Source: Candidatus Brocadia sp. | GTDB lineage: Bacteria; Planctomycetota; Brocadiia; Brocadiales; Brocadiaceae | Length of the DNA: 36,131 bases | Reading direction: 5' to 3' | Assembly: GCA_011525665.1 (NCBI GenBank) | Contig: WYAU01000033.1 | Coordinates: forward strand, 1 to 36,131 | Shown: positions 18,281-36,043 of the stretch, in pieces | How positions within the stretch are numbered: the stretch's first letter is position 1 | Layout of the letters: the number at the start of each line of letters is the position of its first letter | Position numbers and translations under genes: made by a program | Notes under the pieces: model-generated | What the model saw: the letters and a program-made list of their open reading frames with translations, nothing else | Databases searched by the model: none | What the model was told of the DNA's origin: nothing

Positions 18281-19594
18281 TTATGAGATACTCATGCGTG
18301 CATTGCCTGGCCAGAATTTCTCAATCAATTTTGTCGTAATACCAGTTTCCGCAGGTTGAAAACAATCCGCTAGTATCTGCCACTCGAAATCAAGCGCCTG
18401 GTCAAGAGGGATGTTTACATTTAAATCCATCATTTCGTGTTCGAAACGTTCGCCATACCTGAGTAATTTATTATCCCATGCGCTCATGCGAAATCCCATG
18501 GACTGTTTTTCCGTGCTTTCCTTAAACATAGCATAGAGTTGTATCATGGAGTCCATAATCGCACAATGATCTTCCCGTGTGTTCTTATTGACATGCTGCT
18601 TGAGTCGGCTCAATGAGCCAAAAGGCTCTATTCTGCCATTCCTCAGATAAAATTGTCCCTCGGTAATGTAACCGGTATTGTCCGGTATCGGGTGGGTAAC
18701 GTCGTCTCCCGGCATAGTCGTCACGGCGAGAATGGTAATTGACCCCCCGCCTTCAAAGGCAACGGCTTTTTCGTAACGAGATGCAAGCTGGCTGTAGAGA
18801 TCACCCGGATAACCACGGTTTGCCGGTATCTGTTCCATGGTATTTGCGATTTCCTTAAGAGAATTGGCAAAGTTTGTCATGTCGGTTAACAAAACCAGGA
18901 CACGTTTTCCCTCCAATGCAAACTGTTCGGCAACGGCAAGGCACAAATCTGGCACCAGGATGCATTCCACTGCCGGGTCGGCTGCGGTGTGAATAAAAAG
19001 GATCGATCGTGTAAGGGCGCCATTCTTTTCCAGCACATCTTTGAAGAATAGATAGTCATCGTGTTTCAGTCCCAAGCCGCCCAGAATAATGATATCCACC
19101 TTTGCCTGCATCGCAATCCTTGCAAGCAGAGGGTTGTATGGTTCTCCGGCAACGGAAAAAATCGGAAGTTTCTGCGATTCAACGAGGGTATTAAAGACGT
19201 CAATCATGGGAATTCCGGTTTGTATCATCGTACTCGGAGTCATGCGTTTTACCGGATTTACGGAAGGCCATCCGATGTCTATCGGGTTTTCAGTAATTGC
19301 CGGACGTTTATCACGCGGTTCACCACTGCTGTTAAGGATGCGTCCAAGCAGGGATCTTGAACAGGGTATTTTCATTGCATGTCCCAAAAAACGGACCTCG
19401 GCGTTTGTAGATATCCCTTTTGTCCCTTTCAAAACCTGCAGCGATACTCTGCCACCTTCAAGCCGTATAACCTAGGCAAGAGAACTGCCTTCCGGGGTTG
19501 TTATGGTGGCTAACTCTCCGTAAGAAACCTCATCGGCAATAACGGTAACCACATTTCCAACGATTTGTTCAATTTTTTTGTATACTCTGCGCAT
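18281..19594 (-). pseudogene. atpB: V-type ATPase subunit B with in-frame amber at codon 41
   Basis: Reading from the ATG at 19594 ([16 protein letters not shown], typical of V-type B N-termini) gives 437 codons to the stop at 18281, a normal length. Codon 41, complement of 19472-19474, is TAG. It falls in a strand that reads SSLA[17 protein letters not shown], where B subunits commonly have Gln (GQVL...), so a CAG-to-TAG change is the simplest explanation. The downstream part is well preserved ([57 protein letters not shown]). Restart at the internal ATG at 19432 would lose about 54 residues of the beta-barrel domain. The start overlaps the end of subunit A by 26 bases. Confidence 0.85.
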
Positions 19595-21271
19595 GTTCCA
19601 CAACCTTTTCCAGCATGGTGTCGATTTCTGATTCAATCGTCAGAAATTCATACGACTCCATAGCACTATAATTCCAATCTTTTGTTTTTTGTGTTAATAT
19701 TTGAAAAAACCTCCTTGCCTCATCTTTTTCATCAAAGTCCATTTTCGTTCCCAGTATCTTTACGATCTTGTGATGGGTATATCTTTGGCGTTCCACAGAG
19801 ACATAGGTAATAAAATCATCCATTAAGGTACCTTCTTCGTCGACCACCTTCATCATCTGCACAATGTCATTGCCATTCCGGAGAATTTTTTTGCCAGTTT
19901 TATGTCGTCTGATTCTATAATACTGCAATACTTGCTCCAACTATCAAGCGGGTGAATCGCAGGATACCTTCTGGCGTCTGAACGTTCTCTGGACAACCCA
20001 AGAAATGCCCCCACTACTTTAAGCGTTGCCTGAGTAACAGGACCGCCAGCAGGACTTACCGTGCCGCCAATGGTAACGGATCCTACCGTTCCGTCACGGA
20101 GCTTTACCATTGCAGCACGTTCATAAAACGATGCAATAAGCGACTCAAGATTCGCGGGGAATGCCTCATCGCCGGGTATTTCTTCGAGACGCCCTGATAC
20201 TTCCCTGAGTGCCTGTGCCCAGCGCGACGTGGAATCGGCCAGCAGCAAGACGTGCAGTCCCATTTGACGGTAATATTCCGCCAGCGTTGCTGCCGTATAA
20301 ATGGAAGCCTCACGGGTGGCCACCGGCATGGCGCTGGTATTGCATACAATCACCGTTCGTTCCATGATGCTTTTCCCCGTACGAGAATCGATAAGTTCTG
20401 GAAATTCACGAAGTGTTTCTACCATTTCATCTGCCCTCTCGCCGCACGCGGCAATGACAACGACGTCCACATCCGCATTCTTGCTGATGAGTTGCTGCAA
20501 TATGGTCTTGCCGGCGCCAAACGGGCCGGGAACGCAAAATGTTCCTCCTCTTGCAACGGGAAAATACGTGTCAACAATTTTGATTTTTGTCACCAAAGGG
20601 TCCGTTGGCATCAGCCGTTCACCGTAACAGCTCAGAGGGATTTTTATCGGCCATTTCTGTACCATGGATACCTCTACACGGAAACCCCTCTTATCTTGTA
20701 ACTCAGCAATGAACTCGCTGATCCGGTAGAAACCATGCGTTGCAATCCTTACCACTTCATATCTTCCCTTCAATGAAAAGGGGACCATGACACGATGACT
20801 GAAAATCCCTTCTGGCACGGTTCCAAGAGTGTCACCGGCACTCACCGTATCGCCATTTTTTGCCACAGGGGTAAATTCCCATTCTGCATCTCTCGGAAGG
20901 GCAGGTAAATACATGCCGCGCTTTAAGAAGAAACCGCATTGTCTGGCAAGTTCGGGAAGGGGATTTTGAAGCCCGTCAAATACTTGTGCAAGCAGACCAG
21001 GACCTAATTCAACGGTTAGCAGGTCTCCCATGAAATCGACATGCCCTCCTACTTTCAGCCACTTTGGTTCCTCCAGAATTTGTAAGTCTGCGTAGCGTCC
21101 CCGTATTCGTATTACCTCGGCTTTTAGTCGTAGATCTTCCCGTGTTGCGTAAGCAACTTCATTTTGCCTTACGGTACCATAGAATTCGGCAGTTATCATG
21201 TTGCCATTTATCGCTACGATTTTTCCACAATGGCAATGTGCGCTTTCACGATTTCCGCATTTACATCCCAT
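19569..21271 (-). pseudogene. atpA: V-type ATPase catalytic subunit A, frameshifted at a seven-A run
   Basis: From ATG at 21271 the frame encodes a V-type A subunit: GKIVAINGNMITAE near the start, Walker A GPFGAGKT at 249-256, then ADSTSRWAQALREVSGRLEE and GGTVSPAGGPVTQ. At codons reading LAKK (T run 19886-19892 on the plus strand) the frame runs into a stop ten codons later (19853-19855). Moving back one base at that point continues with KKILRNGNDIVQMMKVVDEE and about 105 residues of the normal C-terminal domain to 19569, for a total of about 567 residues, normal for the family. The N-terminus has an unusual extension with C3, C5, C13 and C15. The frame overlaps the preceding gene by 11 bases. 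Confidence 0.85.
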
Positions 21272-21803
21272 AACGTATTTCCTCACACGTACTATCCAGA
21301 AGCCCTCGCACCACATCACGTCCTTTTTCTTCATTGAACGACTTCCACCGCATGACCAGCTTCAGCTTCAAAATAAAAGAGAACAGAGAAGACACACCGA
21401 AATAATCACTCGCTGCCAGCTCATCGAGAAGCTGCCACCGGTATGCGTCCAGAGTACGCTCCTTCTCGAGAGGATTTTGTTTACTGAGTATCTCTGCTGC
21501 CACTGATGCACTGTTTCTGCCAATCTCTTCAGGCTCGCGTAAAAATTGCTGCGGATTGATGTGTAATCTTGCAGTTCTTGCAAATACGAGGGCATTTTTC
21601 AATTGGTTTTCCCTCCAAAGCCATTGCTGTATAAATGGATGGCACACCGTTTCTGGCTTTCCGTTTACCACCCGTTCAAGATCCTCCCTGTCCTGGAACG
21701 AAAGTAAATGCTTGCATGACTCAAAAAAATCTTCAGGGGTATGGGAAACGTCACTGTCGAGAGTAAGCGGCACAAGGCTTGTGGCGAGATAATAATATGC
21801 CAA
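21261..21803 (-). CDS. DUF2764 family protein of V-type ATPase operons
   Basis: A 180-residue protein beginning AYYYLATSLVPLTLD, which matches the YYYLxxSLPxL start of DUF2764 proteins found between subunits E and A in Chlamydia, Treponema and Bacteroidetes V-type ATPase operons. It probably takes the place of the central-stalk subunit C. It is helical and soluble. The start is TTG immediately after the stop of subunit E (TGATTG), with GAGGGG upstream. The reading frame appears intact and it overlaps subunit A by 11 bases. Confidence 0.75.
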   Translation of the reverse strand: MAYYYLATSLVPLTLDSDVSHTPEDFFESCKHLLSFQDREDLERVVNGKPETVCHPFIQQWLWRENQLKNALVFARTARLHINPQQFLREPEEIGRNSASVAAEILSKQNPLEKERTLDAYRWQLLDELAASDYFGVSSLFSFILKLKLVMRWKSFNEEKGRDVVRGLLDSTCEEIRYGM

Positions 21804-22439
21804 TCAATTTCCCCTCATAAAATTGTTTGCAACCCGGTGAATAATCTCAGCGAATTGAGGTTGTAAGAGACAACAGAGGGATTCTGCTATTGCCTCCTGT
21901 GTGAAATCATGAAAGACACCATCCGATTTCAGCGATACCCTGAATCCTCTGCGTATCGTATCGTCAGCCTGTATGTCAATTCCTTCCCGGAACCGTTCTC
22001 GGTACTTATCCATAAACAAGGTAACCAAAGTTTTTTGATCTTCCCGGCTTAGTAACAGTTTAACTCCCCCTTCCGCAAATCCCTTTTCAGCGTATGTTGA
22101 AATAAGTTTAACCATCATCTGCATCAAGGTGTCAGAAGAAAACGATTCACCGACTGAATAAAACACAATTTCCTGCAACAGGTTTTCCATGCTCTTGCCA
22201 ATGGCAAGAATAAAATCTCTTGCCGCCTGTTCTACCGTCTTGATGCCCTGTTCGGTAAGCAGGGCTGCCTCATGTCGTGCGTGCTCAAGGTTTCTTTTTG
22301 CCGCGGCTTCAGATTCCTGCACAATCCGTGCAGCCTGCTCTCTCGCTTTTGCGATGATGCCTGCAGCCTCTTGTTCGGCTTTTTCAACACCCTCTTTTTG
22401 AATACGAATTAATAAATTTTCAAGATTTTCAGCCATCAT
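21804..22439 (-). CDS. atpE: V-type ATPase peripheral stalk subunit E
   Basis: A 211-residue protein with a long N-terminal coiled coil rich in A, E, K and Q (about 5-90, including EGVEKAEQEAAGIIAKAREQ) and a globular C-terminal domain, the layout of NtpE/AtpE, which ties the catalytic head to the membrane part. The start at 22439 (MMAENLENLL) is chosen because family members begin just before the coiled coil. The 32 extra codons possible upstream (to 22535) run through a hairpin and look non-coding. GAGGTG lies 12 bases before the ATG, a rather long spacing; ATG at 22451 is the alternative. First gene of the operon; the frame is intact. Confidence 0.85.
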   Translation of the reverse strand: MMAENLENLLIRIQKEGVEKAEQEAAGIIAKAREQAARIVQESEAAAKRNLEHARHEAALLTEQGIKTVEQAARDFILAIGKSMENLLQEIVFYSVGESFSSDTLMQMMVKLISTYAEKGFAEGGVKLLLSREDQKTLVTLFMDKYRERFREGIDIQADDTIRRGFRVSLKSDGVFHDFTQEAIAESLCCLLQPQFAEIIHRVANNFMRGN

Positions 22440-22507
22440 AAAGGTTCCCATCACCTCTGGTTTGCTGGATCTTTTCCTCGTGAGATAAACATGAGGAAAA
22501 GACTCAT

Positions 22508-22537
22508 AAAAGAGTATGAAAATAGCCATTTTCATAC
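22508..22537 (-). terminator. Hairpin between the TPR gene and the V-ATPase operon
   Basis: A perfect 10-bp stem GTATGAAAAT/ATTTTCATAC (22514-22523 and 22528-22537) with a four-base loop lies 12 bp after the stop of the TPR gene. On the minus strand it is followed by TCTTTTA, a weak T-tract. It is AT-rich, so it may be only a partial terminator separating the TonB operon from the V-ATPase genes. Confidence 0.45.
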
Positions 22538-22549: not shown

Positions 22550-23947
22550 CTAACGGGATCTGGCAAAATGTTCGACCTGTTCCAGGTATTTTTGTACTTC
22601 GTCACTTGGTTTCAGTTGCTGAGCCCTGCGAAGCAGCGGAAGCGCCTCGTTGTATTTACCCGTTTTCACCAGCATCTGAGCGTGGCGCACTTTAGCATCC
22701 GCTTCATGGGTTTCAATGCTTGCGGCACGTTCATAGTAAAAAACGGCCTTTTCCGTATTGCCATTGCGTGCAGCGTGTTGTCCGAGCAGGATGAGCGCTT
22801 CACCATCCAGAGGATCGAGGGCCACAATCTCTTCAAGAACATGAGCCTCTTCATCGCCGGCTCCTTCCGCAACAGCAAGTCGTGCGCGGAGCTTAAGCAA
22901 GCCTTTCTGTTCCGCTGCTCCAAGCTCTTTACCGTGCAGGGTTTCTATGCGTTCAATCAGTCGCCGTGCTTCTTGAAGGGCACTGCGGGCAGTCAGCACT
23001 TTGGCAGCGCGAAGGGCACGGTCGGATTTTTGTTGTGGATTATTTTCCATTGCGCGAAGGTAGGAATTGACAGCCATTTCATAAAGACCTTCGTTCAGGT
23101 AAATGTCACCCAGCATATTGAGGCTGTCGCTGGTAGATTTACCGAGGCGATCGACGAGTTCATAATTTTCAGCGGCCTTGAGAGGCTGATTCATCCCGAT
23201 ATAGGCATTGGCCTGAAGCAACCAAAAGTCTGCGCGATCCGGTTGCTCAGTTATGAGGCGATCGCAGAACGCAGCAGCTTCGGCATAACGCATCTGCTTA
23301 AAAAAGCTGCGCGCCAGCCCCATTTTCCAGTCCATCGTAGATGGATCAAGCAGGACGGCCATACGAAATGCGGTCTCGGCGCAAAGGTAGTTCTCCACGG
23401 ATGCATAAGCAAAACCAAGCATACCGTAGGTAATCGAATCTCCGCCTCCGAGCTCAATAACGCGGGTAAGTGCGGGAATCGCCTTTTCATATTCATTCTG
23501 ACGGACATAAATCAGACCAAGGTTACGCCAGGCGCGGAGAAATTTGGGATATTTTTCAACGGCACCACGATAGACCTCAACCGCCTGTTCATATTTTTCC
23601 TGCTGAAAAAAAATATTCGCCAGCAGGAAATCATGAAGGGCGTTAGCCGTCTTACCGCGGCTTTTTTCAAGCAACAGGGCGGCATTATCCATCTGGTCAG
23701 ATGAAATGAGGTCAAGCATCTTTTGCATCTTGATTCGCTCATCCGTAGTAACGCGAGGCTCAATTTCCGTCTCCGACAGGTAACTTTCGATAAACCGTTT
23801 TTGAAATGCCGGACTGTTCCATATCTCAAGTACCGGTTGAGGCAACTGAGATGCGCCGGTGTGTGTCATCATGATACCAGAGGTAAAATGAATAAAGGCA
23901 AGGCTTATAAGGTATCCGGAAGTAAAATAGAATCGTAAGAGTTTCAT
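22550..23947 (-). CDS. TPR-repeat protein, last gene of the TonB2-type operon
   Basis: A 465-residue exported or membrane-anchored protein: hydrophobic N-terminus (about 7-27), then about eight to nine tetratricopeptide repeats from about residue 105 to the end (for example EKYEQAVEVYRGAVEKYPKF and NEYEKAIPALTRVIELGGGD). TPR proteins close TonB2-type gene clusters (DUF3450, TtpC, ExbB, ExbD, TonB, TPR) in Vibrio and relatives, where they are thought to aid complex assembly or receptor coupling. AAAGGA lies nine bases before ATG, and the gene begins six bases after the tonB stop. Confidence 0.85.
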   Translation of the reverse strand: MKLLRFYFTSGYLISLAFIHFTSGIMMTHTGASQLPQPVLEIWNSPAFQKRFIESYLSETEIEPRVTTDERIKMQKMLDLISSDQMDNAALLLEKSRGKTANALHDFLLANIFFQQEKYEQAVEVYRGAVEKYPKFLRAWRNLGLIYVRQNEYEKAIPALTRVIELGGGDSITYGMLGFAYASVENYLCAETAFRMAVLLDPSTMDWKMGLARSFFKQMRYAEAAAFCDRLITEQPDRADFWLLQANAYIGMNQPLKAAENYELVDRLGKSTSDSLNMLGDIYLNEGLYEMAVNSYLRAMENNPQQKSDRALRAAKVLTARSALQEARRLIERIETLHGKELGAAEQKGLLKLRARLAVAEGAGDEEAHVLEEIVALDPLDGEALILLGQHAARNGNTEKAVFYYERAASIETHEADAKVRHAQMLVKTGKYNEALPLLRRAQQLKPSDEVQKYLEQVEHFARSR

Positions 23948-23952
23948 GGATA

Positions 23953-24630
23953 TTATCCTTTCGGGAAGGTAATCGGTACACGCATACGGAACCGGACGGG
24001 TTTGCCGTTCCGCTTGCCGGGTTCAAATTTCCATTGTCTAATGGCAGAGAGCGCCGGTTTGTCGAATACCGGGTCGCTCGAACTCTGCACCACAGGCATC
24101 TCTACCCGTCCGTCTGCAGAAACTACAAAAAGAAGATAAACCGTGCCCGGCGCTTTTTTCCGCATGTGTTTGTCGATTGCCGGTGCAGGTTGATACACCA
24201 CGCGCGGTTTCTGGTCGAGGTCTGCCAGAGAGAAAAGTGCGTCAGCATCAAAACCATCACCATTGCCGCCTGAACCGAGGGTATTGAGTTTTACAAAAAA
24301 ATCTCCCCCCATCAGGCTCTCGTTCAATCCTGGATCAAGTGCAAGCTCAAGCTGCGACAAATCAAGCGGTGGCGACTTTTCCGTTAACTCCGGAGGAGGT
24401 TCCTCCGGTTCAGGTTCTTTTTCCGGTTCTTCCTCCGGCAGTGGTGGCGGCGGTGGAATGTTGCCCGTTTCCATGCTTCTCACCACCAAATCGGTTGCCG
24501 GCGGTTTGGTTATGGTCTGAATAAGCGGTAACACAAGAAAAAAGAGAAGCGTAAAGCCTGCGGCACCAAAAGCAATCTTCAGATAATACTTCAGCTGTTT
24601 GACGATAGAATCTTTCTTTTGCCTTTTCAC
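23953..24630 (-). CDS. tonB: TonB energy transducer
   Basis: A 225-residue protein with a cytosolic start, one transmembrane helix (about 20-40), a Pro/Glu-rich periplasmic spacer (IPPPPPLPEEEPEKEPEPEE, about 58-77) and a C-terminal TonB domain (about 135-225) with VYLLFVVSADGRV, SALSAIRQWKFEPG-type motif and the RVPITF end. It carries proton-motive energy from ExbB/ExbD to the outer-membrane receptor. The start is GTG, four bases after the exbD stop, with no clear ribosome binding site, so translation is probably coupled. Confidence 0.93.
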   Translation of the reverse strand: MKRQKKDSIVKQLKYYLKIAFGAAGFTLLFFLVLPLIQTITKPPATDLVVRSMETGNIPPPPPLPEEEPEKEPEPEEPPPELTEKSPPLDLSQLELALDPGLNESLMGGDFFVKLNTLGSGGNGDGFDADALFSLADLDQKPRVVYQPAPAIDKHMRKKAPGTVYLLFVVSADGRVEMPVVQSSSDPVFDKPALSAIRQWKFEPGKRNGKPVRFRMRVPITFPKG

Positions 24631-24634: not shown

Positions 24635-25054
24635 TTATTCGCGTTTGTTTGTTTGACTGGTAGCGACGCTTACCTTGTTGGCCCCACCCAGCTTTGCTTC
24701 ATCAATAATACGAACCAGCAGTCCCGATTGCGCTGCATTGTCAGCCTGAACGATAACCGGAATTTCCTCTTTCTGAAGCATGCGCTTCACGAGAGACCGT
24801 ACACCGCTGACGCCGATTTCCCGCCCTCCGTAAATCACTTCACCCTTTTCTGTTAGTGCAATTAAGATACTGTTTTTTTCAAGCCGAGATGCGGATGCTG
24901 CCTTTGGCTTATCCACTTCAACACCCGTCTCCTCGACAAACGTGGTGGTCACAATGAAAAAGATGAGCAAAATAAATACGCAATCAATCAACGGAGAGAT
25001 ATCAATTCCGGACTCGGTACTGTCATCAGTAGTAAATTCTCGAAAGCGACCCAT
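24635..25054 (-). CDS. exbD: Biopolymer transport protein ExbD
   Basis: A 139-residue protein with one transmembrane helix (about 22-42) preceded by the conserved aspartate-containing ISPLIDCVFILLIFF (D25 or nearby is the proton-carrying residue in ExbD/TolR), and a periplasmic domain with VIVQADNAAQSGLLVRIIDE near the C-terminus. GAGG lies six bases before ATG. It works with ExbB to power TonB. Confidence 0.93.
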   Translation of the reverse strand: MGRFREFTTDDSTESGIDISPLIDCVFILLIFFIVTTTFVEETGVEVDKPKAASASRLEKNSILIALTEKGEVIYGGREIGVSGVRSLVKRMLQKEEIPVIVQADNAAQSGLLVRIIDEAKLGGANKVSVATSQTNKRE

Positions 25055-25068: not shown

Positions 25069-25746
25069 TTAAGGTTTATCGGTTGTTTTTACCAGAACTT
25101 CCATCATCTCATGAGCGTTTCCGGATTGTTTTGTCTTTCTTAAGAGTTTCTGGGTGTAGATTGTTTCGAGATGCGCCAGAAAACCCTTATACCGTTCATG
25201 GTGTCGGGCAAGCTGATACTGAAAAAAGAGTCCGGGCAGCGCAATGACCAGTCCCGTTTCCGTCGTAATTAAGGCTTCGGAAATACCCTGAGCCACAAGA
25301 CCCATGGTTTTTTCCCCCCCGGAACCGGAAGCCAGCGCTCCAAACGTGGTAAGCATGCCCGTCACCGTCCCAAGGAGTCCTAATAAAGGCGAGGCACTAA
25401 CACAAATTTTCATAACGCGCAGGTCACGCTCGAACGGAACAATTTCAGTTTCACGCAACTCCTGGAAAAGAACGGCAGTATGTTTGAGTGAATTACTGTT
25501 TGTAACAAAATCAAGCAGGCTGCCTATCGGGCCTTTTCTTTCGTCCGGCTGGTCAATCCAGCGCCTCAATAATCTGTCGGGGACATTACGAAAGCCTTTT
25601 TCGTTCAGTTTAAGAAGTACGTGCATGCCCAACCCATACAGCACAAGGGCGTTTAGTGCTAACGCAATCATGCCCCATCCGCCGGAAAGCCAGATGGAAT
25701 ACGCCTGTTCCCATAAAACTTTTCCTTGCTCAATTATTGGAATCAT
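25069..25746 (-). CDS. exbB: ExbB/TolQ-type proton channel protein
   Basis: A 225-residue MotA/TolQ/ExbB family protein with three transmembrane helices, at about 20-40 and in the region from SPLLGLLGTVTGMLTTFGAL to GISEALITTETGLVIALPGL, the two hallmark stretches of the family. The start at 25746 (MIPIIEQGK) is chosen because GAGG lies eight bases upstream; a longer in-frame ATG at 25773 would overlap the previous gene by 14 bases. It forms the motor with ExbD. Confidence 0.92.
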   Translation of the reverse strand: MIPIIEQGKVLWEQAYSIWLSGGWGMIALALNALVLYGLGMHVLLKLNEKGFRNVPDRLLRRWIDQPDERKGPIGSLLDFVTNSNSLKHTAVLFQELRETEIVPFERDLRVMKICVSASPLLGLLGTVTGMLTTFGALASGSGGEKTMGLVAQGISEALITTETGLVIALPGLFFQYQLARHHERYKGFLAHLETIYTQKLLRKTKQSGNAHEMMEVLVKTTDKP

Positions 25747-25759
25747 TTTCTCATCCTCT

Positions 25760-27235
25760 TCATTCTTCATCAATCATTACGGTATCTCTTCTAACGTCTT
25801 CATGTGCAGCCCGAAAGGGAGTTTTGTTCATTTGGTTGATAAAAGCGACAGCTGCCTTTTGCATCTGATCGGTGACACTGCGGGCCTTTCGTGAAAGAAA
25901 GGCATGGAGCAGCAACGAAGGAATTGCCACAATCAGGCCAAACTCAGTGGTAATAAGCGCCTCTGAAATACCACTGGACAGTGATTTAACGTCGCCTGAG
26001 CCGAACACGGTAAGCAGCTTAAAAGTGTTAATGATGCCGGTGACCGTTCCGAGCAGACCGAGTAACGGTGCAGAAGAGGCGCTAATGGCAATAAAGGGAA
26101 GCAGGCTCTGAAGTTTGAGACGCGTGGCCTGAACCGTTTCGTACATAATCTCTTCTATCAGTTCGCACCGCTCCTGGAGATGCTCTGCACCGGCAACAAG
26201 CATTTTGCCAACCGGGCCGCCAATGGCATCGGCGGCAGAAATCGCCGCGTGTTTATTGTGCCGGGCAATGGCATGTAGGAAGGATTTGATAGTATCCTGA
26301 GACGGTTTGCGCAGAGAAAACAGGACAATGCATTTGTAAATCGTCAAGAGAAAGGCAGTGGCAGCCAGCGCCAGGATGGGTATCATAACTGGCCCTCCTT
26401 TTGTAATATGTTCCCAAAGCGCCTCGTTCGTTGCCTCAATTTTGTGTGCATTTCCAAGGGTAGGATCGAGCGGGAAATAGCCACGGGAATCAGTGACGAC
26501 GTGCGCCGCTGCATCAGAATCACCGGAGTTTTGAAAACCAAGTACGCTAGGTTCGAGTGACCCAAGGCGCTGTTCTGCGGTTCCAACGCTTTTTCCATCA
26601 TCCGAGCGAAAAAGCGCAACCGGGCCAACAAGTGCAAATGTGCCGTTCTTCACCAACCCGCCGATATCGACAGCGGTACCGGTAAAACGAGTGCCACCAA
26701 GTGCTTCGTCCAGACGATCGAGTGACATAACGATCAGGTCTGCTTGAGTTTGAAAAATTTCCTGCTTGGAAAGATTGCTGTTATCAAAGGCGAGTTTTGC
26801 TTTAGTGAGCGCTTCTTCATATCGTTGCAGTTCTGCAATGTGCAGGCGGGACTCAAGGTTCCGAATGTACTCACTCAGGAGGTTGGAAAGATAGGTCTCC
26901 TCTTCCTGCCGTATTTTGATCTCATTGCGCAGATTACTGAGGTCCAGCGCCCGGCTATCGAGTAAACGGGATGTTTGTTGATATTCGCCCCGAACCCTGA
27001 CGAGTTCACCTTCAAGGTCACTGAGTTTTCGGCTCAGCGGAATCTTTTCCCTTGCTATCTGTTCACGTAGCGCACTCAATGCGGCGAGGCTCTCATCAAG
27101 CTGCTGTTGCATGGTTGCTGCCGTTTTCCTGAAGGATTCTTCGGTTGTCTTTGGTGGTTCTCCAGCGAAAACGGGTGGTGAACTGACAGGAAAAGAGACA
27201 AGAAAAAAGATGAAGAAACAGTTTAGTGTTTTCAT
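25760..27235 (-). CDS. TtpC-like ExbB paralogue with periplasmic coiled-coil domain
   Basis: A 491-residue protein: signal peptide (1-24), long periplasmic coiled coil (about 35-150), a beta-rich middle part (about 175-265) and a C-terminal MotA/TolQ/ExbB module (about 275-465) with SSAPLLGLLGTVTGIINTF and GISEALITTEFGLIVAIPSL. This is the architecture of TtpC, the fourth essential member of the Vibrio TonB2 system, which is thought to bridge the inner-membrane motor and periplasmic partners. Two ExbB-type proteins in tandem distinguish TonB2-type from the simple TonB/ExbB/ExbD set. It follows the DUF3450 gene. Confidence 0.9.
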   Translation of the reverse strand: MKTLNCFFIFFLVSFPVSSPPVFAGEPPKTTEESFRKTAATMQQQLDESLAALSALREQIAREKIPLSRKLSDLEGELVRVRGEYQQTSRLLDSRALDLSNLRNEIKIRQEEETYLSNLLSEYIRNLESRLHIAELQRYEEALTKAKLAFDNSNLSKQEIFQTQADLIVMSLDRLDEALGGTRFTGTAVDIGGLVKNGTFALVGPVALFRSDDGKSVGTAEQRLGSLEPSVLGFQNSGDSDAAAHVVTDSRGYFPLDPTLGNAHKIEATNEALWEHITKGGPVMIPILALAATAFLLTIYKCIVLFSLRKPSQDTIKSFLHAIARHNKHAAISAADAIGGPVGKMLVAGAEHLQERCELIEEIMYETVQATRLKLQSLLPFIAISASSAPLLGLLGTVTGIINTFKLLTVFGSGDVKSLSSGISEALITTEFGLIVAIPSLLLHAFLSRKARSVTDQMQKAAVAFINQMNKTPFRAAHEDVRRDTVMIDEE

Positions 27236-27253: not shown

Positions 27254-28099
27254 TTATCGGATTTCTATGGGCAGCGGTACAAAGGCTGCCGCGGTTTCAT
27301 TTTTAAAAATAGCGATGGCCTGAGCGATTTGAACAGCCGATTCGTTTGCCGGCATCCATACCCACCCATCAGGTGAAGCGGTTCCTATACCGGCCACATC
27401 TCCCCTGCCATTGACGTAATATGCCTGGCCAATTCCGATATAGAGTGCGGTAACTTCAGCAGAGGTTCCATCGGGTAGTTTGCGCACCTCGCTGGTAACG
27501 GTGATTTCACGATTGAATTTATTCACTTCGTTCAGAATTCCTATAATATTCTGAAACCGTTCACTCAATGATAGCTTGGTCACTGCCGGGCTATTTGGTA
27601 TCCGCTGACTGAGCGGTATGACGCGTTCACGGATCGGATCCGGCAGCCGTTTCAGGAGTTCTTTGGTCTTACCTTCCAGATCAATAGCCATACTGTTAAG
27701 TGATCCCGTGATTTCCTTCAGTTTTTCATTCTCCTGCAACAACTCAGCTTGTTTTTTGTCTGCCTCAGTGATGCTTTCTTTGGCCTCGCTGATTTTTCCG
27801 CGGAGTGATTCAATTTCACGACTTACGAGTTCAATCCTCTCGGAAAGCATTTCCCTCGCCAGCTCAAAGTTGTGTTTCTCCTGAGAAATAATGCGGCTGG
27901 TTTCCACCCACTTTTCCAGGGATGCGCGTGTTTTGTCCACATCGCTACCGCTGATGCCGGCGGATATGGTCATTGAGGACAACAGAACGGTCGCCGTCGT
28001 CAGCAAGAGCGTCGGGATTACTGACCACCGATGCATACGATATGACGAGTGTCTTCTGATCTTTGACTTATGATCTTTGTTTTTTGAAATTATTTTCAT
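27254..28099 (-). CDS. DUF3450 family periplasmic coiled-coil protein
   Basis: A 281-residue protein with a basic N-terminal stretch, a signal-like hydrophobic segment (about 27-47), a long coiled coil (about 55-145) and a C-terminal beta-rich part (about 185-281) ending in IAIFKNETAAAFVPLPIEI, which fits the DUF3450 family. DUF3450 genes sit directly upstream of ttpC in TonB2-type operons, as here. The exact role is not known; a periplasmic scaffold for the TtpC domain is the usual suggestion. The first ATG is used (AAAAAAGGATT upstream); M22 is an alternative with a more standard signal peptide. Confidence 0.85.
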   Translation of the reverse strand: MKIISKNKDHKSKIRRHSSYRMHRWSVIPTLLLTTATVLLSSMTISAGISGSDVDKTRASLEKWVETSRIISQEKHNFELAREMLSERIELVSREIESLRGKISEAKESITEADKKQAELLQENEKLKEITGSLNSMAIDLEGKTKELLKRLPDPIRERVIPLSQRIPNSPAVTKLSLSERFQNIIGILNEVNKFNREITVTSEVRKLPDGTSAEVTALYIGIGQAYYVNGRGDVAGIGTASPDGWVWMPANESAVQIAQAIAIFKNETAAAFVPLPIEIR

Positions 28100-28140: not shown

Positions 28141-31100
28141 CTAAAATACTGCGCTTATGGAAAATGAAAAATCGATGCCCTTGGTGTAGGATGTCCTTAC
28201 TTCTTCGTCGCCAAGATGATCCGGAGTTCGGTAAACCTCCTCAATCTTTGGATTCAGCAGGTTTTTTGCCATAAATGTAAGATCAAAGTGCTTCCCGATT
28301 TTTTTCGATATACTCATGTTCAGTGTTCCAAACTCCTTTGCATAGATGTCCGGCACGTAATGGCCGTTTCTGTTTCCTGCGCCAACCACCAGGGTATCCC
28401 CCTTTACGGTATAAAAAAGTCCCATTTTTGTTTCAAAGGGCTCATAATCATACATCACGTAGAGATTGTAGAGGTATTCAGGCGCTCCGAGCATGTCGCG
28501 GGTTTTCGTGTCTACCCCTGCATTGGCAAGGTTTTCCCTTTCTCTCTCAGGGAGCGTTACTTCAGAGTCAATAAACGTAGCATTGCCTCCAATCGAAAGG
28601 CCATTCAGCGTACCCCAGAAATATCCAAGGTGCTGCCTCGTTTCCACTTCAAAACCGATTAACTTTCCTTCCGGAAAATTCAGCGGTGTTATAAATGAAA
28701 ATGCATTCACCAGGTCCTGCACATATTCAATGGGATCCTTGATGTCTTTATAGAACCAGGAAACCGAAAACAACCCTCCGTTATAGGGCATATAATCAAG
28801 CCGGAGGTCGTAATTTCTCAGGGCACTTAACTGGAGTTCCGGATTTCCGATAAAGATATCGTCGCCAAGGAATTCCTGTTGCTGAATGGGTGTAAGCTCT
28901 TTAAAGGTAGGGCGTGCCACGGTTTCGCTGTAAGAACCATGGATCGTAATCTTTTTGTACGGGTTTAACACCAATCCAATGGATGGCAACACATCATCCT
29001 GATCAAGCGAAACATCGGCGTCGCCAGGCTGCAGATCCGTATACAGACGGTTCCCTTTCTCGTCAATAGTGACCCATTTCGCATCCTTTTCAGGGTCGTT
29101 AATGATGCTGAGTGAAGTGGTTTCGTACCGAACGCCACCAATTACCTTCACAAAAGACCATAAGGGTACATCCGCCATGTAATACCAGGCTGAAATATTC
29201 TGCTCTCCCTCATAATCCACGTCCACAAAAGGTGGTCCGTCTTTTATTGTAGGGCCGCCCAGATTCAAAAAATCATCGCTATAAGAGTCATCATCCCAGT
29301 CTCCTTCTAAAATGGGAATAGGGCCTTCGCCAGTCTGCCGGTAGTTGCCAAAGGAATCCTGATCATAGGTACGGTCTACCTGATCATAAAATACACCGAG
29401 TTTCAGATATCCTTTATCACCACTCCATTGTTCAAAGGGGAACTTCCAGTTTGTAAAATATTGTGTGCTTTCTTCTGAAATCTCTTCCCAGGTTCGCGAA
29501 AGGTTTCCCAGGAGAATATTAGCAGAAGTAGTGAAGGGGCCATAGTATGCACGGTCAATTCTGGGTGGAATACCGAATTCAGGATTCCCCTTGTTATAAG
29601 AATTTGGATACCATACCGACCCGAATTGCCGCTCGTCAGGCTCATCTAAATCTGAAGAGCTGAGGGCAACCGTCCAGTCGATTTCAGGCGGGAGGGTCTC
29701 GAAGATGTTATTAAATCCGATTTCTGGAATCGACAGGGTATGATTACCGTTGAATTGCAGCGTGTCCGTTGTCCGCTCTGTATATTTCAGCGTTTCCGAC
29801 CTTAGATAGGGAGCGGCATGTAGATTGTCATGCAAATTGCCCAGATTCTTCGGATCATTGGGGTCATATCCGGGAAAATAATAAGCCTTGCCCCGGGTAT
29901 CTTCAGCGAGAATTGCCTTGTCCTCAGTAAGCCGGGTATGCATATAGAGCACCTCCAGTGAGTGGTCTTCGATTTCCACACCCACTGCGCTCAATACCCC
30001 CCATTGCACCTCTTCTCTGCCCTCGGTGACATCAAAAAGCGCTGTTTTAAAGTCTTCTCCAACTGCCGGTATCGGCGGGATCGGGGGCTTATCCGGATTG
30101 CCGTATTGAGGGGTCAGACCTTTTCTGGGATCGCCATTATCAATCCATAGGGAATCATTTACTCCGTTGTCATAAAAGGAACTGTCACGTTTGTAATATG
30201 AGCTGAGGAGGCCGCCGGCCCTAATCCCATTCTTGAATTGATGTTTCCCCCCGGCGGTCATCGCCAGGGAATAATCGATCGGCGCATCATCACGGGAAAC
30301 GCCCACGGTATCAGTAAAATTGCCATCTGACGGAATATCCCGGCTGCCATCATCAATACCAGAAAAATTCACTCCCCCACCGTCGTAGCTGAGGAAACGG
30401 TTCTTACCCGTCACCTGCGTGTTATATTCGGCTCCGGTCTTAAACATGAGCACTTTTTCGTCAGGAATTCCTTTGAGTGCAACATTCACTGCCCCGCCTG
30501 AGGCATCACCCTGCTGATCCGGGGTAAAGGTTTTGCTGACCTGAACATTGTCAATTACCTCCGTGGGAAACTGATCGAGCTGCACGGCACGCTTATCAGG
30601 ATCAGCGGTCGGCAGACGCACGCTATTCATCTGTGAATTTACATACCGGTCCGGCAACCCGCGCACTACAGCGTATTTACCGTCCTCTACCGTAGCGCCT
30701 GCTATCAGATTCAGCGCACTGGCAGCATCAGTGGCTCCCGCTTGTTTTAACCATTCAGAACTAATTGAGTCCAAAAGCGCCGGGCTTTCGACACGAAGCA
30801 TCAGCAGTCCGGCTTCCGTCCCTCCGATCTGCAGATCCTGGACAACAAACTCCTCCATCTCCGTGAACTCGCCGGACAGCGAAGCATCCACTTCTGTCAT
30901 CTTTCCCGGTGAAACTACCACATTGGCTTTCACCTGCCGGACGTAGCCATCTTTTGAAAAAACAACCGTATAGCTGCCCGGTGGCACCTGACCGAAGACA
31001 AAATTGCCCTCATCCGTTGTCATTGTTTTATATCCAACCTCAGCAATTGATACTTGTGCCGCGGCCAGCGGTGCGTCAAAATCCTTGTCGTACACCATGC

Positions 31101-31203
31101 CGCGGATAGAACCTGCTTGTTGCGCCAACGCTATTCTGGTTAAAAAAAGCATCATAAGGGGAAATATACAGCTATACCACTTTCTAGCTATAGCCATATG
31201 CAC
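28141..31203 (-). CDS. TonB-dependent outer-membrane receptor with carboxypeptidase-like N-terminal domain
   Basis: A 1020-residue receptor: signal peptide (about 1-28), an N-terminal CarboxypepD_reg-like beta domain (about 30-110), a TonB-box-like EEFVVQ (about 117-122), plug domain (about 135-255, with NSVRLPTADPDKRAVQL and GDASGGAVNVALKG) and a 22-strand-type barrel ending in a terminal Phe (SFSISAVF) for BAM recognition. It imports a large or scarce ligand across the outer membrane using the TonB motor encoded downstream. The extra N-terminal domain is common in receptors for organic ligands, but the ligand cannot be told from sequence. Confidence 0.93.
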   Translation of the reverse strand: MHMAIARKWYSCIFPLMMLFLTRIALAQQAGSIRGMVYDKDFDAPLAAAQVSIAEVGYKTMTTDEGNFVFGQVPPGSYTVVFSKDGYVRQVKANVVVSPGKMTEVDASLSGEFTEMEEFVVQDLQIGGTEAGLLMLRVESPALLDSISSEWLKQAGATDAASALNLIAGATVEDGKYAVVRGLPDRYVNSQMNSVRLPTADPDKRAVQLDQFPTEVIDNVQVSKTFTPDQQGDASGGAVNVALKGIPDEKVLMFKTGAEYNTQVTGKNRFLSYDGGGVNFSGIDDGSRDIPSDGNFTDTVGVSRDDAPIDYSLAMTAGGKHQFKNGIRAGGLLSSYYKRDSSFYDNGVNDSLWIDNGDPRKGLTPQYGNPDKPPIPPIPAVGEDFKTALFDVTEGREEVQWGVLSAVGVEIEDHSLEVLYMHTRLTEDKAILAEDTRGKAYYFPGYDPNDPKNLGNLHDNLHAAPYLRSETLKYTERTTDTLQFNGNHTLSIPEIGFNNIFETLPPEIDWTVALSSSDLDEPDERQFGSVWYPNSYNKGNPEFGIPPRIDRAYYGPFTTSANILLGNLSRTWEEISEESTQYFTNWKFPFEQWSGDKGYLKLGVFYDQVDRTYDQDSFGNYRQTGEGPIPILEGDWDDDSYSDDFLNLGGPTIKDGPPFVDVDYEGEQNISAWYYMADVPLWSFVKVIGGVRYETTSLSIINDPEKDAKWVTIDEKGNRLYTDLQPGDADVSLDQDDVLPSIGLVLNPYKKITIHGSYSETVARPTFKELTPIQQQEFLGDDIFIGNPELQLSALRNYDLRLDYMPYNGGLFSVSWFYKDIKDPIEYVQDLVNAFSFITPLNFPEGKLIGFEVETRQHLGYFWGTLNGLSIGGNATFIDSEVTLPERERENLANAGVDTKTRDMLGAPEYLYNLYVMYDYEPFETKMGLFYTVKGDTLVVGAGNRNGHYVPDIYAKEFGTLNMSISKKIGKHFDLTFMAKNLLNPKIEEVYRTPDHLGDEEVRTSYTKGIDFSFSISAVF

Positions 31204-31278: not shown

Positions 31279-32412
31279 TTAAAAGCTGTTGTGTTTTACC
31301 ATCCACTCCCTGGCACGTTGCTGCGCCTTGTTAATTTGAGAGGGTGACATCCTTTTTTCAATCATGTCGCGATGCCTTGCCGCAGGAGTATGGCCTTGTG
31401 ACGTTCCAATACTGTACCACATATGTGCAGAGACATAATCCTGAGGCATCCCGCGTCCGCACTCATACAGCATACCCAGGTTGACCTGTGCTGAAGGCAT
31501 ACCCTGGTCTGCCGCGACCCGGAACCAGTATTCAGCCTGCCGATGGTCTTGAGTAACCCCCTGCCCTCTGAGGTACAGCAAGCCCAGGTTGATCTGCGCG
31601 ATACCTTCTCCTTGTTCGGCAGCACGTTTGAACCATGCGAATGCTTCCGCAAAATTTTGCGAAACACCACGTCCTTTCAGGCACAGCAAACCAAAATTGG
31701 TCTGTGCAACGGCAAGTCCGTGACTGGCTGCACGTCTGTACCAAAAAGCTGTTTCCTTATCATCCCGGGGCATGCCTTCGCCTTTATAGTACATCCAGCC
31801 CAGCAGGAACTGGGCCTCGGCAACTTCCTGTTCGGCAGACAGCCGGAACCATTTCACTGCTTTTTTCAGGTCTCGCCCAACACCCTGGCCTGCATAGTAC
31901 AGCAAACCCAGATTATGCTGTGCAGGGGCATATGCCTGCTTTGCAGCAAGTTTGTACCAATATGCTGCCTGCCTATGATCCTGAACAACGCCGCGTCCCT
32001 TTTCGTATATAGTCCCCATAGCGTGCTGGGCAAGGACGTATCCCTGTACCGCAGCAAGACGGTACCACGTGATTGCCTCCGGGATGTCCTGAGAAACACC
32101 TACTCCATCGTAATACATTGCACCCAGCGCGTACCTGGAACGGGCATCCCCCTGTTCAGCGGCAATCCTGTACCAATGAGCTGCTTGTCTATGATCCTGT
32201 GCAATACCTTTCCCGTCATAACACATTGCGCCCACAAGGAACATGGCTTTGGCATTTCCCTGCTCGGCAAGCGTTTTCCATTTCCGAAAAGCTGCCGCGT
32301 AGTCTCTTTTTCCGAGTGCATCCCAACCCTTCTGAAAGTCATCAGACCATCCTTTGGGGGATACAAGGAAGAGGACAGCACATGCAAAGAGAATAAGCGG
32401 CAGATTTTTCAT
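31279..32412 (-). CDS. Exported Sel1-repeat protein
   Basis: A 377-residue protein with a signal peptide (MKNLPLILFACAVLFLV, then GWSDD) and eight Sel1-type repeats of 36 residues from about residue 52 to 340 (pattern AxAQxxLGxxYxxGxGVxQDxxxAxxWxxxAAxQG). Sel1 repeats form a solenoid for protein-protein contacts. ATG at 32412, two bases after the stop of the upstream gene, is preferred because it begins a normal signal peptide; a longer frame to 32463 would overlap that gene. It lies between a lipoprotein with TPR-like helices and the TonB receptor, so it probably scaffolds this uptake system. Confidence 0.88.
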   Translation of the reverse strand: MKNLPLILFACAVLFLVSPKGWSDDFQKGWDALGKRDYAAAFRKWKTLAEQGNAKAMFLVGAMCYDGKGIAQDHRQAAHWYRIAAEQGDARSRYALGAMYYDGVGVSQDIPEAITWYRLAAVQGYVLAQHAMGTIYEKGRGVVQDHRQAAYWYKLAAKQAYAPAQHNLGLLYYAGQGVGRDLKKAVKWFRLSAEQEVAEAQFLLGWMYYKGEGMPRDDKETAFWYRRAASHGLAVAQTNFGLLCLKGRGVSQNFAEAFAWFKRAAEQGEGIAQINLGLLYLRGQGVTQDHRQAEYWFRVAADQGMPSAQVNLGMLYECGRGMPQDYVSAHMWYSIGTSQGHTPAARHRDMIEKRMSPSQINKAQQRAREWMVKHNSF

Positions 32413-32414
32413 TA

Positions 32415-33662
32415 CTACCACGGGTCTCCCAGTCCATCGTGAATCTGGTGGATTCTGTGCCACAGTTCATCGTCAGGCCCTACCTCGTGCAGGGCCATTG
32501 AGATGCAGGTGTCGGCCAAATCTTCGGCGCGTGGCCGGGAATTAGGGTTTTCAATACCTTCCTCAACAATTCGTTTGTAAACTGCCAGTGCCGTTGCCAT
32601 ATTGCCCATAGACTGATACGCCTCTGCAAGGGGCCGAAGGGCTCCTGCCCGGTCGATATTCACCATTTTATTCCGTTCTGCATCAAAGAGGGCAAGCAGG
32701 ATATCCGCATCGGTTCTTGCCTTTTGTTCATCACCGGCCCCGAAACGCAGTCTTACTAATTTTGAGGTCAGAGGAATGCGGTGTTCCGGACGCCATTGCA
32801 CACCATCCATGAAGGTCTGTGCTTCGTTAACCAGCGCAAGCGACTTCGCCTGATCCCCATGATCCAGCGCAAATCCAGCCAGATCTGTCAGGCATTCAAC
32901 CCGCCTAAAAATCGGTAATTTTTCCCAGGAGGTTTTCATCTTCTCTTCCACAAGGGAACGACGCACGGTATCATCATAAAAACGATGGAAGAGCTGAGCG
33001 CACGCCTGCAGCGCATTGTCCACGATGTCATAATTGTTCGATACAAGGAGTGCTTCCAGTGCATTCATGTGTTCATCAAAAGCATCTTTGTCGGCAATCG
33101 TTGCCTTTACTGCGGCTATTTTACCCCTCTCAGCATCTGCTACGCCCGTTCCATGCTGATCGGCCTCCTGATTTTGTCCCAGCAAGACATACGTATTGGC
33201 AATCTTTACTCTGATGTGGTCTCTGCGCCAGTCTGCAGCAGATTCTGAAACCTGAATGGCAAGATTGACATATTGTTGCGCTTCATCAGTGAACCCATGC
33301 TTAGCGCAATAAAGGGCCAGGTCGCCATAACCTGAGCCACGACGCCAATTGTCGATCTTTTCAATAAAACTGAGCGCCTGCAGTGGCTGGTCAAGTTCAA
33401 GAGCTGCCGAAACTACCTTCTCCTGCGCCCGAGACCGGTCTTTAATGTGCGGTTTGGCCGGAATTGCCGCAGCAGTTTCGAAGGCAAGGCCGAGCAGTCT
33501 ATTCTGATACGACGCGAGCGGTTTGTCAGTCAGGGAGCCAGTCGTGCCGGACTCATTCTGCACAAAATTGTTTATTGTGCCCTGCTTGCTGCAAGAGTTA
33601 GTGAACAAAAATACCGTGAAACCCACCAACAAAGAAATAATACATTGTAATTTTTCAACCAT
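32415..33662 (-). CDS. Exported TPR-like protein, possible lipoprotein
   Basis: A 415-residue protein with an N-terminal hydrophobic segment (about 7-22) and a cysteine in TNSC that may be a lipobox, though the -3 Thr is atypical. The rest is all-helical with loosely TPR-like pairs (LDQPLQALSFIEKIDN; GFTDEAQQYVNLAIQV; GDQAKSLALVNEAQTF; GNMATALAVYKRIVEE). No catalytic motif was found. It is the second gene of the operon, between the secreted beta-helix-like protein and the Sel1-repeat protein, and ends in TAG two bases before the next ATG, showing that TAG is an ordinary stop here. Confidence 0.8.
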   Translation of the reverse strand: MVEKLQCIISLLVGFTVFLFTNSCSKQGTINNFVQNESGTTGSLTDKPLASYQNRLLGLAFETAAAIPAKPHIKDRSRAQEKVVSAALELDQPLQALSFIEKIDNWRRGSGYGDLALYCAKHGFTDEAQQYVNLAIQVSESAADWRRDHIRVKIANTYVLLGQNQEADQHGTGVADAERGKIAAVKATIADKDAFDEHMNALEALLVSNNYDIVDNALQACAQLFHRFYDDTVRRSLVEEKMKTSWEKLPIFRRVECLTDLAGFALDHGDQAKSLALVNEAQTFMDGVQWRPEHRIPLTSKLVRLRFGAGDEQKARTDADILLALFDAERNKMVNIDRAGALRPLAEAYQSMGNMATALAVYKRIVEEGIENPNSRPRAEDLADTCISMALHEVGPDDELWHRIHQIHDGLGDPW

Positions 33663-33753: not shown

Positions 33754-35655
33754 TTATTTTTTTACTTTCACCTTCAGCACCGTTTTTAAATCTTCAGCTT
33801 CAAAGGTTACTTTTGCACTGCCTTTTTTCTTGCCGGTTATCGTGAACACGGCATTGCCATTTGCATCCGTTTCCGCGCTGACCGGAGAAATCTCGATGCG
33901 TTTCGCATGTTGTTTTCTAATATTCGCCTCAACGGTCACACCTTCGGATGGACATGCATCTTTTCCCACTACTGATACGGTGACATCACCACTATCCCCG
34001 TTGCTGATTTTCAGCACCTTTGTTGATGACGCCATTGATTCCGGGTCACATCCGTCAGAACTGGTGCTGGTCATTCCGTAAGCATCTGAAGCCGTCCAGC
34101 CGTCCAGCCAGTTGTCGGTTGCGCTAAAAGCGCCGCGGTACTGAGCAGGTGTAAAAAACCCGTCATCAGGTGCCATGCCGGCGCTGGTAAGCGCCTCATT
34201 TGCGGGAAGCGGATCTAATGATATAATGGGAAGCACTCCCTTTCCTTCTGAAGAGGTAAATAATGCACCACGGGTTATGCTTACAATGGGTGCGTCTGAC
34301 GAGTCAGACCCCGAAATGACGACGTTGTTCTTGTCTGGATTACTGCCGCCGCTTAACGTTACGCCAACCGTATCCGATTCGCTGTAGGCGTCTGTGTGAA
34401 GATTACGAAAGAACACACTGTCCGTAATTTCTGCAAGTTTACCGGAGGTCTGAGTCGTGTAGAGTGTCTTGGCGTGGTTAAATTCACCCTCGTTGCACCC
34501 GATGCAGGGATTTATATTTGAAGTAACCGTGTAATCAGTCTTCCACGTGTCTTCAAAAGAAAGCGTGCCATTAAAACCATACCCATTAGCACCGTCTCCG
34601 TCGTTACCATCGTTTTTCACAAGCCTTTCACCCAGATCCATAAAGATGCAGTTGCGATACTGAACGCGGGCATTGTCACGCCAGGCCGTTCCGTGATCGC
34701 CGTCAATCGGATTTCCAATAACGGTGGCATTATAAATGATGGATGTGGTTACCGGCTGTGCGTCGGAATCCTCAGCGCCATCCGTTTCGAAACAGTTGTC
34801 TCCCACACCGGAACCCTGTTTGGCATCCAGGCTATAGCCCTGAACAACTAAAATGAACTGTGCTTTACCGCGCCAGCCCTGGTCAATGTCGAAGCTGTCA
34901 TCGCCAACGTTCCAGATGCTGATATATTTCAAATTCACGGTACCACCCCAGATTTCAATGCCATCATCCACATTGTTCATGATTTCAACATGGCTGATAT
35001 CGGTTTCCCGGCCAATGCCACCCAGCGACAAACCGTTAAGCTCGTTGCCAAGCCCGACCACTTTACCTGCATATCGCAGGGACAGATAGCTGATCGAACC
35101 GCTGTCATCATTGTCGTCTTTACCACCGTATAATGAAAAATCAGGATCGGTCAAACCTTCCATCTGCTTCTCATTTAAACCAGAAGGGTCCTTTGTATTG
35201 TTTCCCACCTGCAGGCCACCGAAATGAGAAGCGGAAATCAGCCCTTTCCCCATAATCGTCAGATTTCCCCACTCATTTGCACCCGCGCGCCATTTTCCGG
35301 TTTTTGGGTCGCCGCCGCTGGGATGGCTTGCATCTTTTGCCCAGGTTGCAACGTCATCGGTGGACGTCATAATGACCGGGTTGTCCTTAGTCCCGTTCAC
35401 AAAGATTTTAGCGCCACGTGCCACAGCCAGACTACCGCCGGCACCCGTGGTGCTTGCAATAACCGTTCCTGCCTCAATGGTCAGTGTCGCTCCCGGCAGA
35501 ACGAATATCTGTTTCTCCATCCTGTAGACGTTGTCGGAGGTCCATGTCGTGGATGTGCTGATGTTTTCTGTCACCTTCACCGTGGCAGCACCTGCAGTGC
35601 CAGCAATAAAAAGGGAAACCACTACCCCGCAGAGTATTTTTGTTATATTCTCCAT
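33754..35655 (-). CDS. Secreted beta-helix-like protein with C-terminal Ig-like domain
   Basis: A 633-residue protein with a signal peptide (about 1-23, AGTAGA-A). The main body (about 25-480) has the PGATLTIEAGTVI strand-turn motif and many short beta strands with Gly/Asn/Asp turns (SHVEIMNNVDDGIEIWGGTV; IYNATVIGNPIDG), typical of right-handed parallel beta-helix surface proteins. The C-terminal about 80 residues resemble a Big_1/invasin-type Ig domain (SAETDANGNAVFTITGKKKG). Residues about 385-389 contain CIGC. AAAGGAG lies nine bases before ATG. It is the first gene of the TonB2-type uptake operon, so it may capture or process the substrate at the cell surface. No enzyme active site was recognised. 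Confidence 0.85.
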   Translation of the reverse strand: MENITKILCGVVVSLFIAGTAGAATVKVTENISTSTTWTSDNVYRMEKQIFVLPGATLTIEAGTVIASTTGAGGSLAVARGAKIFVNGTKDNPVIMTSTDDVATWAKDASHPSGGDPKTGKWRAGANEWGNLTIMGKGLISASHFGGLQVGNNTKDPSGLNEKQMEGLTDPDFSLYGGKDDNDDSGSISYLSLRYAGKVVGLGNELNGLSLGGIGRETDISHVEIMNNVDDGIEIWGGTVNLKYISIWNVGDDSFDIDQGWRGKAQFILVVQGYSLDAKQGSGVGDNCFETDGAEDSDAQPVTTSIIYNATVIGNPIDGDHGTAWRDNARVQYRNCIFMDLGERLVKNDGNDGDGANGYGFNGTLSFEDTWKTDYTVTSNINPCIGCNEGEFNHAKTLYTTQTSGKLAEITDSVFFRNLHTDAYSESDTVGVTLSGGSNPDKNNVVISGSDSSDAPIVSITRGALFTSSEGKGVLPIISLDPLPANEALTSAGMAPDDGFFTPAQYRGAFSATDNWLDGWTASDAYGMTSTSSDGCDPESMASSTKVLKISNGDSGDVTVSVVGKDACPSEGVTVEANIRKQHAKRIEISPVSAETDANGNAVFTITGKKKGSAKVTFEAEDLKTVLKVKVKK

Positions 35656-36043
35656 GATATATTTCTCCTTTGCTCATCTCCTGTAACCGTAATAGTTAAT
35701 AAAATTTACTGTTAAATGCAAACGTGATAAAAAAGTCACAAAAAACTTCCATTGAAAATGTCCCCAAATAAAAACCGTAGTTATTTTTCCATAATTACAC
35801 CTCCAGTTCATCACTTGTGGATGGGAAAAAACACTTGCATTCGAAAGAATAATGAGAAAACCCACCAGATTCAGAAACGTCATACCTAAAAACAGATATC
35901 TGCAGGAGAGAAGCCAATAAGGCTTTTTGAAATATAAACTTTATTTGTTAAGAAAATATTAAGAAATTGTTAAAATATTGTTAATTATATGATCGGGAAC
36001 CCTTGTTACGCGGAATAGTTTCAAAAATGTTTTGAGGGATACC
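35656..36043. other. Divergent control region between uptake operon and cation ATPase
   Basis: This 388-bp region is very AT-rich. It contains the 11-bp-periodic hexamer array (35946-35984), a small hairpin AAGCC-AATAA-GGCTT (35911-35925) and, on the minus strand, a GGAGG ribosome binding site (35798-35804) in front of a three-codon frame ATG-GAA-AAA-TAA (35781-35792). A 69-codon minus frame at 35674-35883 has no ribosome binding site or family features and is probably not a gene. The leader of the minus operon would be about 270 nt. No known riboswitch was recognised. Confidence 0.6.
35931..35993. promoter_or_regulatory. Tandem TGTTAA array resembling a PhoB/PhoP box, with divergent -10 elements
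   Basis: Hexamers TGTTAA (35946), TATTAA (35957), TGTTAA (35968) and TGTTAA (35979) recur at exactly 11 bp. On the other strand they read TTAACA, the Bacillus PhoP-box repeat, and 11-bp spacing is the helical repeat used by PhoB/PhoP-family and other OmpR-class activators. Nine bases beyond the array on the minus strand is a -10-like TATATT (35931-35936), with no consensus -35, as in activator-dependent promoters. On the plus side TATGAT (35988-35993) could serve the ATPase gene. Confidence 0.55.

Follow-up and report, generated by a model that had tools for sequence, protein, structure and literature searches.

In Bacillus, the repeat bound by the phosphate regulator PhoP reads TTAACA. The Pho box of PhoB in E. 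coli and its relatives is built of 11-nt direct repeat units (PMC4415409). In Caulobacter, several TonB receptors are under the control of PhoB (PMC11208175), and ElpS (CC0170), which is made under phosphate starvation, is paired with the TonB receptor CC0171, with type II secretion system (T2SS) genes adjacent (PMC2996285). The PUSIII and PUSIV systems of Flavobacterium johnsoniae comprise abundant polygalacturonase-like exoproteins (lipoproteins) that are induced by phosphate depletion and whose genes accompany that of a TonB transporter or phoBR (PMC8115612). The TonB2 operon of Vibrio, with the order ttpB-ttpC-exbB-exbD-tonB-ttpD, is regulated by iron and carries a Fur box (PMC6957404). 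For anammox bacteria, we found incidental mentions but no description of a Pho box or Pho regulon in the open literature searched, of which our coverage was partial.

Here, we describe an array of direct repeats in a Candidatus Brocadia genome of 3.63 Mb in 111 contigs (G000). It lies in a stretch of 36,131 nucleotides, contig C22, referred to as the window. From its sequence context, this array is very probably the PhoB-binding Pho box of a Brocadiaceae anammox bacterium, which would switch on a minus-strand operon for a surface protein and for uptake at low phosphate.

The repeat array and its promoter

On the plus strand, the hexamers TGTTAA (35946–35951), TATTAA (35957–35962), TGTTAA (35968–35973) and TGTTAA (35979–35984) follow one another in exact 11-bp steps. 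Read on the minus strand from 35984 down to 35946, they form the array TTAACA-N5-TTAACA-N5-TTAATA-N5-TTAACA, four TTAAYA units in head-to-tail orientation with a period of 11 nt, an arrangement also found in an alignment of 41 sites. The units match the Bacillus PhoP repeat at the level of the hexamer; as the host is an anammox planctomycete, a recognition shared with Bacillus PhoP is presumed.

The array agrees with TTAAYA at 24/24 positions, whereas the best of 3000 Markov resamples of this intergenic region (388 bp, 31% GC) agreed at 20/24. In a motif-free test allowing any period from 8 to 13, its score of 23 exceeded all 400 resamples (maximum 22). Four TTAANA units at 11 bp occur only once in the whole 3.63-Mb genome, and the reversed control pattern has no match genome-wide. 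The four hexamers with an exact 11-bp period that had been claimed in the earlier note are therefore confirmed, both by their coordinates and by resampling.

A region that is 69% AT might produce periodicity by chance, and the plus-strand reading TTAAGA/TTAAAA is likewise periodic. However, the observed score was never reached in resampling, and the array is kept in register at orthologous loci while the spacers differ. Further evidence comes from 76 upstream regions of related loci, where three-unit arrays with a period of 11 beat nearly all shuffles in 29 cases, compared to 0 to 4 for other periods (8–10, 12–14) and 1 for period 11 inside the gene. Counting against a Pho box, the reverse strand of these regions is also in excess at period 11 (9/76). 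Because the array is conserved, and based on the resampling and the period-11 specificity across related loci, we rejected chance periodicity as an explanation; its probability is negligible.

A probable -10 element, TATATT (35931–35936, minus strand), is located 9 nt after the last unit, and upon inspection no good -35 element was seen at 17 bp before it. The array is thus positioned just upstream of a -10 without a -35, which bears out the earlier note on this point. Among 40 arrays, a TANNNT sequence follows at a gap of 9 in 26, at a gap of 8 in one and at a gap of 10 in none; as these arrays were chosen allowing gaps of 8–10, only the preference inside that range counts as evidence. The consensus derived from the 41 aligned sites is TTAACA-CAAAA-TTAACA-ATTTC-TTAAYA-TTTCC-TTAAYA-N9-TATAAT, in which the T and A positions within the units hardly vary and the spacers are looser. 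The leader is long (290 bp from the end of the box to the start codon of the first gene), which counts against a Pho box.

The array is situated between divergent genes and might serve the plus-strand gene, alone or jointly with the minus-strand operon. The plus-strand open reading frame is a stump of 29 residues, ended by the contig edge (36131), and weakly resembles the N-terminus of cation ATPases (Cation_ATPase_N, E = 0.26, below the cut-off), so that a cation ATPase is plausible; a P-type ATPase set on contig C44 is also found behind a box. However, both the units and the -10 are oriented toward the minus-strand operon, and in the related genomes G005, G018, G020 and G024 the array has no divergent P-type ATPase beside it, whereas the minus-strand operon is conserved there. 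We consider it unlikely that the array serves the divergent gene, and the side claim that a divergent ATPase may respond to phosphate is not supported.

Phosphate genes and the candidate regulator

When allowing for at most one mismatch, three-unit matches number 12 in this genome, compared to 1 for the reversed control. On contig C44, the box precedes an EAL gene heading the run Porin_O_P, PstS, PstC, PstA, PstB, PhoU (with a gap to the -10 of 8), a PhoX-like gene (PhoX domain just below the curated cut-off) and an HMA_2/P-type ATPase set. As the box of the pst genes stands before the EAL gene, transcription through to pst is assumed. On contig C96, boxes are found before a 118-aa gene (orf118) followed by CheW and PsiE, before a set encoding an 823-aa protein (orf823), phosphatidylserine decarboxylase, a methyltransferase and a PHP-glycosyltransferase, before an HMA_2 gene and before another EAL gene. 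The array is therefore present at recognized phosphate genes of the same genome (EAL-porin-pstSCAB-phoU, PhoX-like and psiE); the earlier note had proposed to look for it at pstS, phoX or phoU. Also counting against a Pho box, no array lies before the phoB gene of this genome, and the HMA_2/P-type ATPase loci that share the box do not belong to the classical phosphate genes.

Several of the other genes behind these boxes deserve mention. The orf823 locus on C96 (L022, 9214–18314) additionally encodes Lgt-like and radical SAM proteins, and its rRNA-dimethylase-like methyltransferase is taken to be PmtA-like; the locus is a probable phosphate-starvation lipid-remodeling cluster. EAL genes, encoding c-di-GMP phosphodiesterases, are located behind Pho boxes on C44 (L020, 9628–10449, heading the porin-pst run) and on C96 (about 19843–20739), which points to a possible link between c-di-GMP and phosphate supply. 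Genes with an HMA_2 domain and P-type ATPase genes occur behind Pho boxes in several Brocadiaceae, here at C44 13076–18572 and C96 19147–19464.

In seven genomes taken together, the three-unit matches amount to 76, compared to 13 for the reversed control. The box is located before porin/pst genes in five relatives (G001, G004, G018, G020, G024), in several of which it directly precedes the porin gene, before a second pstB in three (G004, G005, G024), before PhoX-like genes in two (G005, G018) and before phoB in one (G024). The build of the array at 35946–35984 thus recurs at pst, PhoX-like, psiE and phoB promoters. Orthologues of the 633-aa protein encoded by the first gene of the window operon are approximately 70–76% identical in other anammox genomes, and a four-unit box stands directly in front of the orthologous operon in G005, G018 and G020. 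In G024 and G019 it precedes one or more small genes just upstream of the operon rather than its first gene. In the two copies from Ca. Anammoxibacter, which belongs to a different family within the order, the box has the degenerate form TTCACA, and the operon directly follows phoU (L144) or pstSCAB-phoU (L192). Among relatives, the unit drifts from TTAAYA to TTCACR. A protein of 189–190 aa, which by eye looks like a cyclic-nucleotide-binding protein, is also encoded behind a Pho box (G020:C1 2766430, minus strand; G024:C168 47136, minus strand; G018:C1 300020, plus strand) and adjoins the operon in G020 and G024.

The genome contains only two Trans_reg_C (OmpR/PhoB-type DNA-binding) domains. 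One is found in an intact PhoB homologue of 228 aa (C68:3154–3840), the other in a KdpE-like response regulator gene that frame changes and a stop have disrupted (L087, G000:C15:1757–2393). No other Trans_reg_C protein is intact, although the PhoB homologue falls short of the curated equivalog cut-off (256 vs. 296 bits). The kinase encoded next to it, with which it forms a cognate PhoB-PhoR pair (C68:3154–5274), scores above the PnpS cut-off and nearly at the PhoR cut-off. As the second domain belongs to a broken gene, PhoB is the natural candidate to bind the array and would presumably do so.

Direct repeats of 11 bp are a general binding mode of OmpR/PhoB-class regulators, and the box could belong to another member of this family with a different signal, such as iron, potassium or envelope stress, with the phosphate genes reflecting cross-regulation. 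The iron control of the Vibrio TonB2 operon (PMC6957404) and the presence of the box at some HMA/P-type ATPase genes would fit such a regulator. Against it are the scarcity of Trans_reg_C domains, of which only that of PhoB is in an intact gene, the recurrence of recognized phosphate genes among the box-bearing genes of the seven genomes, and the box at phoB itself in G024; we regard another regulator as very unlikely. With arrays at phosphate genes here and in relatives, and a single intact PhoB homologue, the assignment as a Pho box is well supported, as is the earlier reading of the array as a phosphate control site of the PhoB/PhoP class before an uptake operon.

The operon and its relatives

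All genes of the operon are on the minus strand and would be co-transcribed. The first (33754–35655) encodes a secreted, ElpS-like right-handed β-helix protein of 633 aa. It is followed by genes for a 415-aa TPR-like protein (32415–33662), a Sel1-repeat protein (31279–32463) and a TonB-dependent receptor with a CarboxypepD_reg domain (28141–31203), which is CC0171-like by gene pairing. The remaining genes encode a TtpB-like DUF3450 protein (27254–28099), a long, TtpC-like ExbB/TolQ-type protein (25760–27235), ExbB (25069–25773), ExbD (24635–25054), TonB with a TIGR01352 C-terminal domain (23953–24630) and a 465-aa TPR protein in the TtpD-like position (22550–23947). ExbB and ExbD are open reading frames whose operon positions are conserved, and the position of the former is annotated as ExbB in Alteromonas. 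What appears from the translations to be a V/A-type ATPase gene set (17537–22535) starts on the same strand approximately 15 bp after the last TPR gene, so that transcription from the Pho promoter might extend into it; in G020, psiE and orf118 occupy this place.

With 7 sequences, structural modeling of the 633-aa protein gave low confidence (pLDDT 42), and that model was discarded. Modeling of residues 1–540 from an alignment of 35 sequences predicts a right-handed β-helix (pLDDT 86). A fold search with this model gave only weak matches to right-handed β-helices (the best being a polygalacturonase, E = 0.012), and a sequence search of the PDB gave no match. By inspection, there is no lipobox at the apparent cleavage site of the N-terminus, MENITKILCGVVVSLFIAGTAGAATVKV, and no T2SS genes were seen next to the operon. 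The protein contains an anammox S-layer domain (NCBIfam): its C-terminal ~110 aa (33757–34086) match the end of the Kustd1514 anammox S-layer glycoprotein. This S-layer-type domain recurs in many proteins of these anammox genomes, and is perhaps a surface-anchoring or export domain.

Relatives of the 633-aa protein are encoded at 78 loci in Planctomycetota, Omnitrophota, Verrucomicrobiota, Sumerlaeota and one Deltaproteobacterium (according to the titles of the metagenome-assembled genome records). Most of these loci also encode the TPR protein (74/78 for the 415-aa protein), the receptor and the DUF3450 protein. Clustering of the genes flanking these distant operons yielded no convincing recurrent partner; the larger clusters, which look like spurious reading frames on the strand opposite the operon, were set aside.

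More distant homologues are present on plasmids of, among others, Alteromonadales, Bacteroidota and Sphingomonadales. On an Alteromonas macleodii plasmid, phoB, phoR and a gene for a phosphate-binding protein are followed by one further gene and then by the order ElpS-like-receptor-DUF3450-ExbB-ExbB-ExbD-TonB; upstream of this ElpS-like gene there is no significant 11-bp box beyond a borderline two-unit match. In Pseudoalteromonas, an ElpS-like gene is preceded by a four-unit 11-bp box of its own, with units like CTGTCAT. A Marinobacter plasmid copy lacks an adjacent receptor, and an Indioceanicola copy repeats the order ElpS-receptor-T2SS, with no significant 11-bp box in the same test.

Taken together, these data suggest the following model. 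Upon phosphate shortage, the PnpS/PhoR-type kinase would phosphorylate PhoB (both encoded on C68), and the four 11-bp units would be occupied head-to-tail by two PhoB dimers. Bound PhoB, substituting for a -35 contact, would bring RNA polymerase to the -10 and thereby switch on the operon for the ElpS-like surface protein, the TPR and Sel1 proteins, and the TonB-dependent receptor with its own TonB2/Ttp-type energizer. Most likely, the operon would then capture and import a phosphorus-containing compound at the outer membrane, or help to free phosphate from one. Both the induction at low phosphate and the phosphorus compound as substrate are predictions from the genome sequence.

For anammox bacteria, our analysis yields a Pho-box consensus together with a first-pass Pho regulon. 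These organisms, which grow slowly and are used in industry, are predicted to meet phosphate shortage with TonB-driven uptake at the outer membrane, probable lipid remodeling and c-di-GMP genes. The analysis also provides a TonB2/Ttp system without an assigned purpose with a testable physiological role.

Comparison with described systems

Like the PhoB box of E. coli, the anammox arrays are built from 11-nt units in head-to-tail order that immediately precede the -10, and they occur at genes of the phosphate-uptake, phosphatase, psiE and phoB types. They differ in the unit, TTAAYA-N5, which is nearer to TTAACA of Bacillus PhoP than to CTGTCAT, and in that four units are usual.

The last six genes of the window operon (DUF3450, long ExbB, ExbB, ExbD, TonB, TPR) are in the same order as the TonB2 operon of Vibrio, but the set is headed by its own receptor and an ElpS-like gene, and lies behind a Pho box. 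As in PUSIII and PUSIV of F. johnsoniae, a predicted polygalacturonase-like exoprotein is combined with a TonB transporter, a likeness to FI/FII at the level of description; the host of those systems belongs to the Bacteroidota, and a TonB2/Ttp set was not reported there.

As in Caulobacter, where ElpS adjoins CC0171, a secreted or surface protein adjoins a TonB-dependent receptor. The link to CC0170 runs via a Sphingomonas protein in the ElpS position, to which the 633-aa protein is 37% identical over 36% of the protein, and whose neighbors have the same ElpS-receptor-T2SS order as in Caulobacter. Unlike ElpS, the window protein lacks an evident lipobox and T2SS neighbors, carries a C-terminal domain of the anammox S-layer type and is combined with a TonB2/Ttp energizer. 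Tentatively, and with less than even confidence, we propose that PhoB-controlled, TonB-energized phosphorus scavenging by an ElpS-like β-helix protein, a receptor and a TonB2/Ttp motor is widespread, from anammox planctomycetes to Omnitrophota and Alteromonadales, and that the β-helix might be a surface capture partner, comparable to SusD, for the import of phosphorus compounds. The window operon itself is best interpreted as the anammox version of PhoB-controlled phosphorus scavenging by an ElpS-type protein and a TonB receptor.
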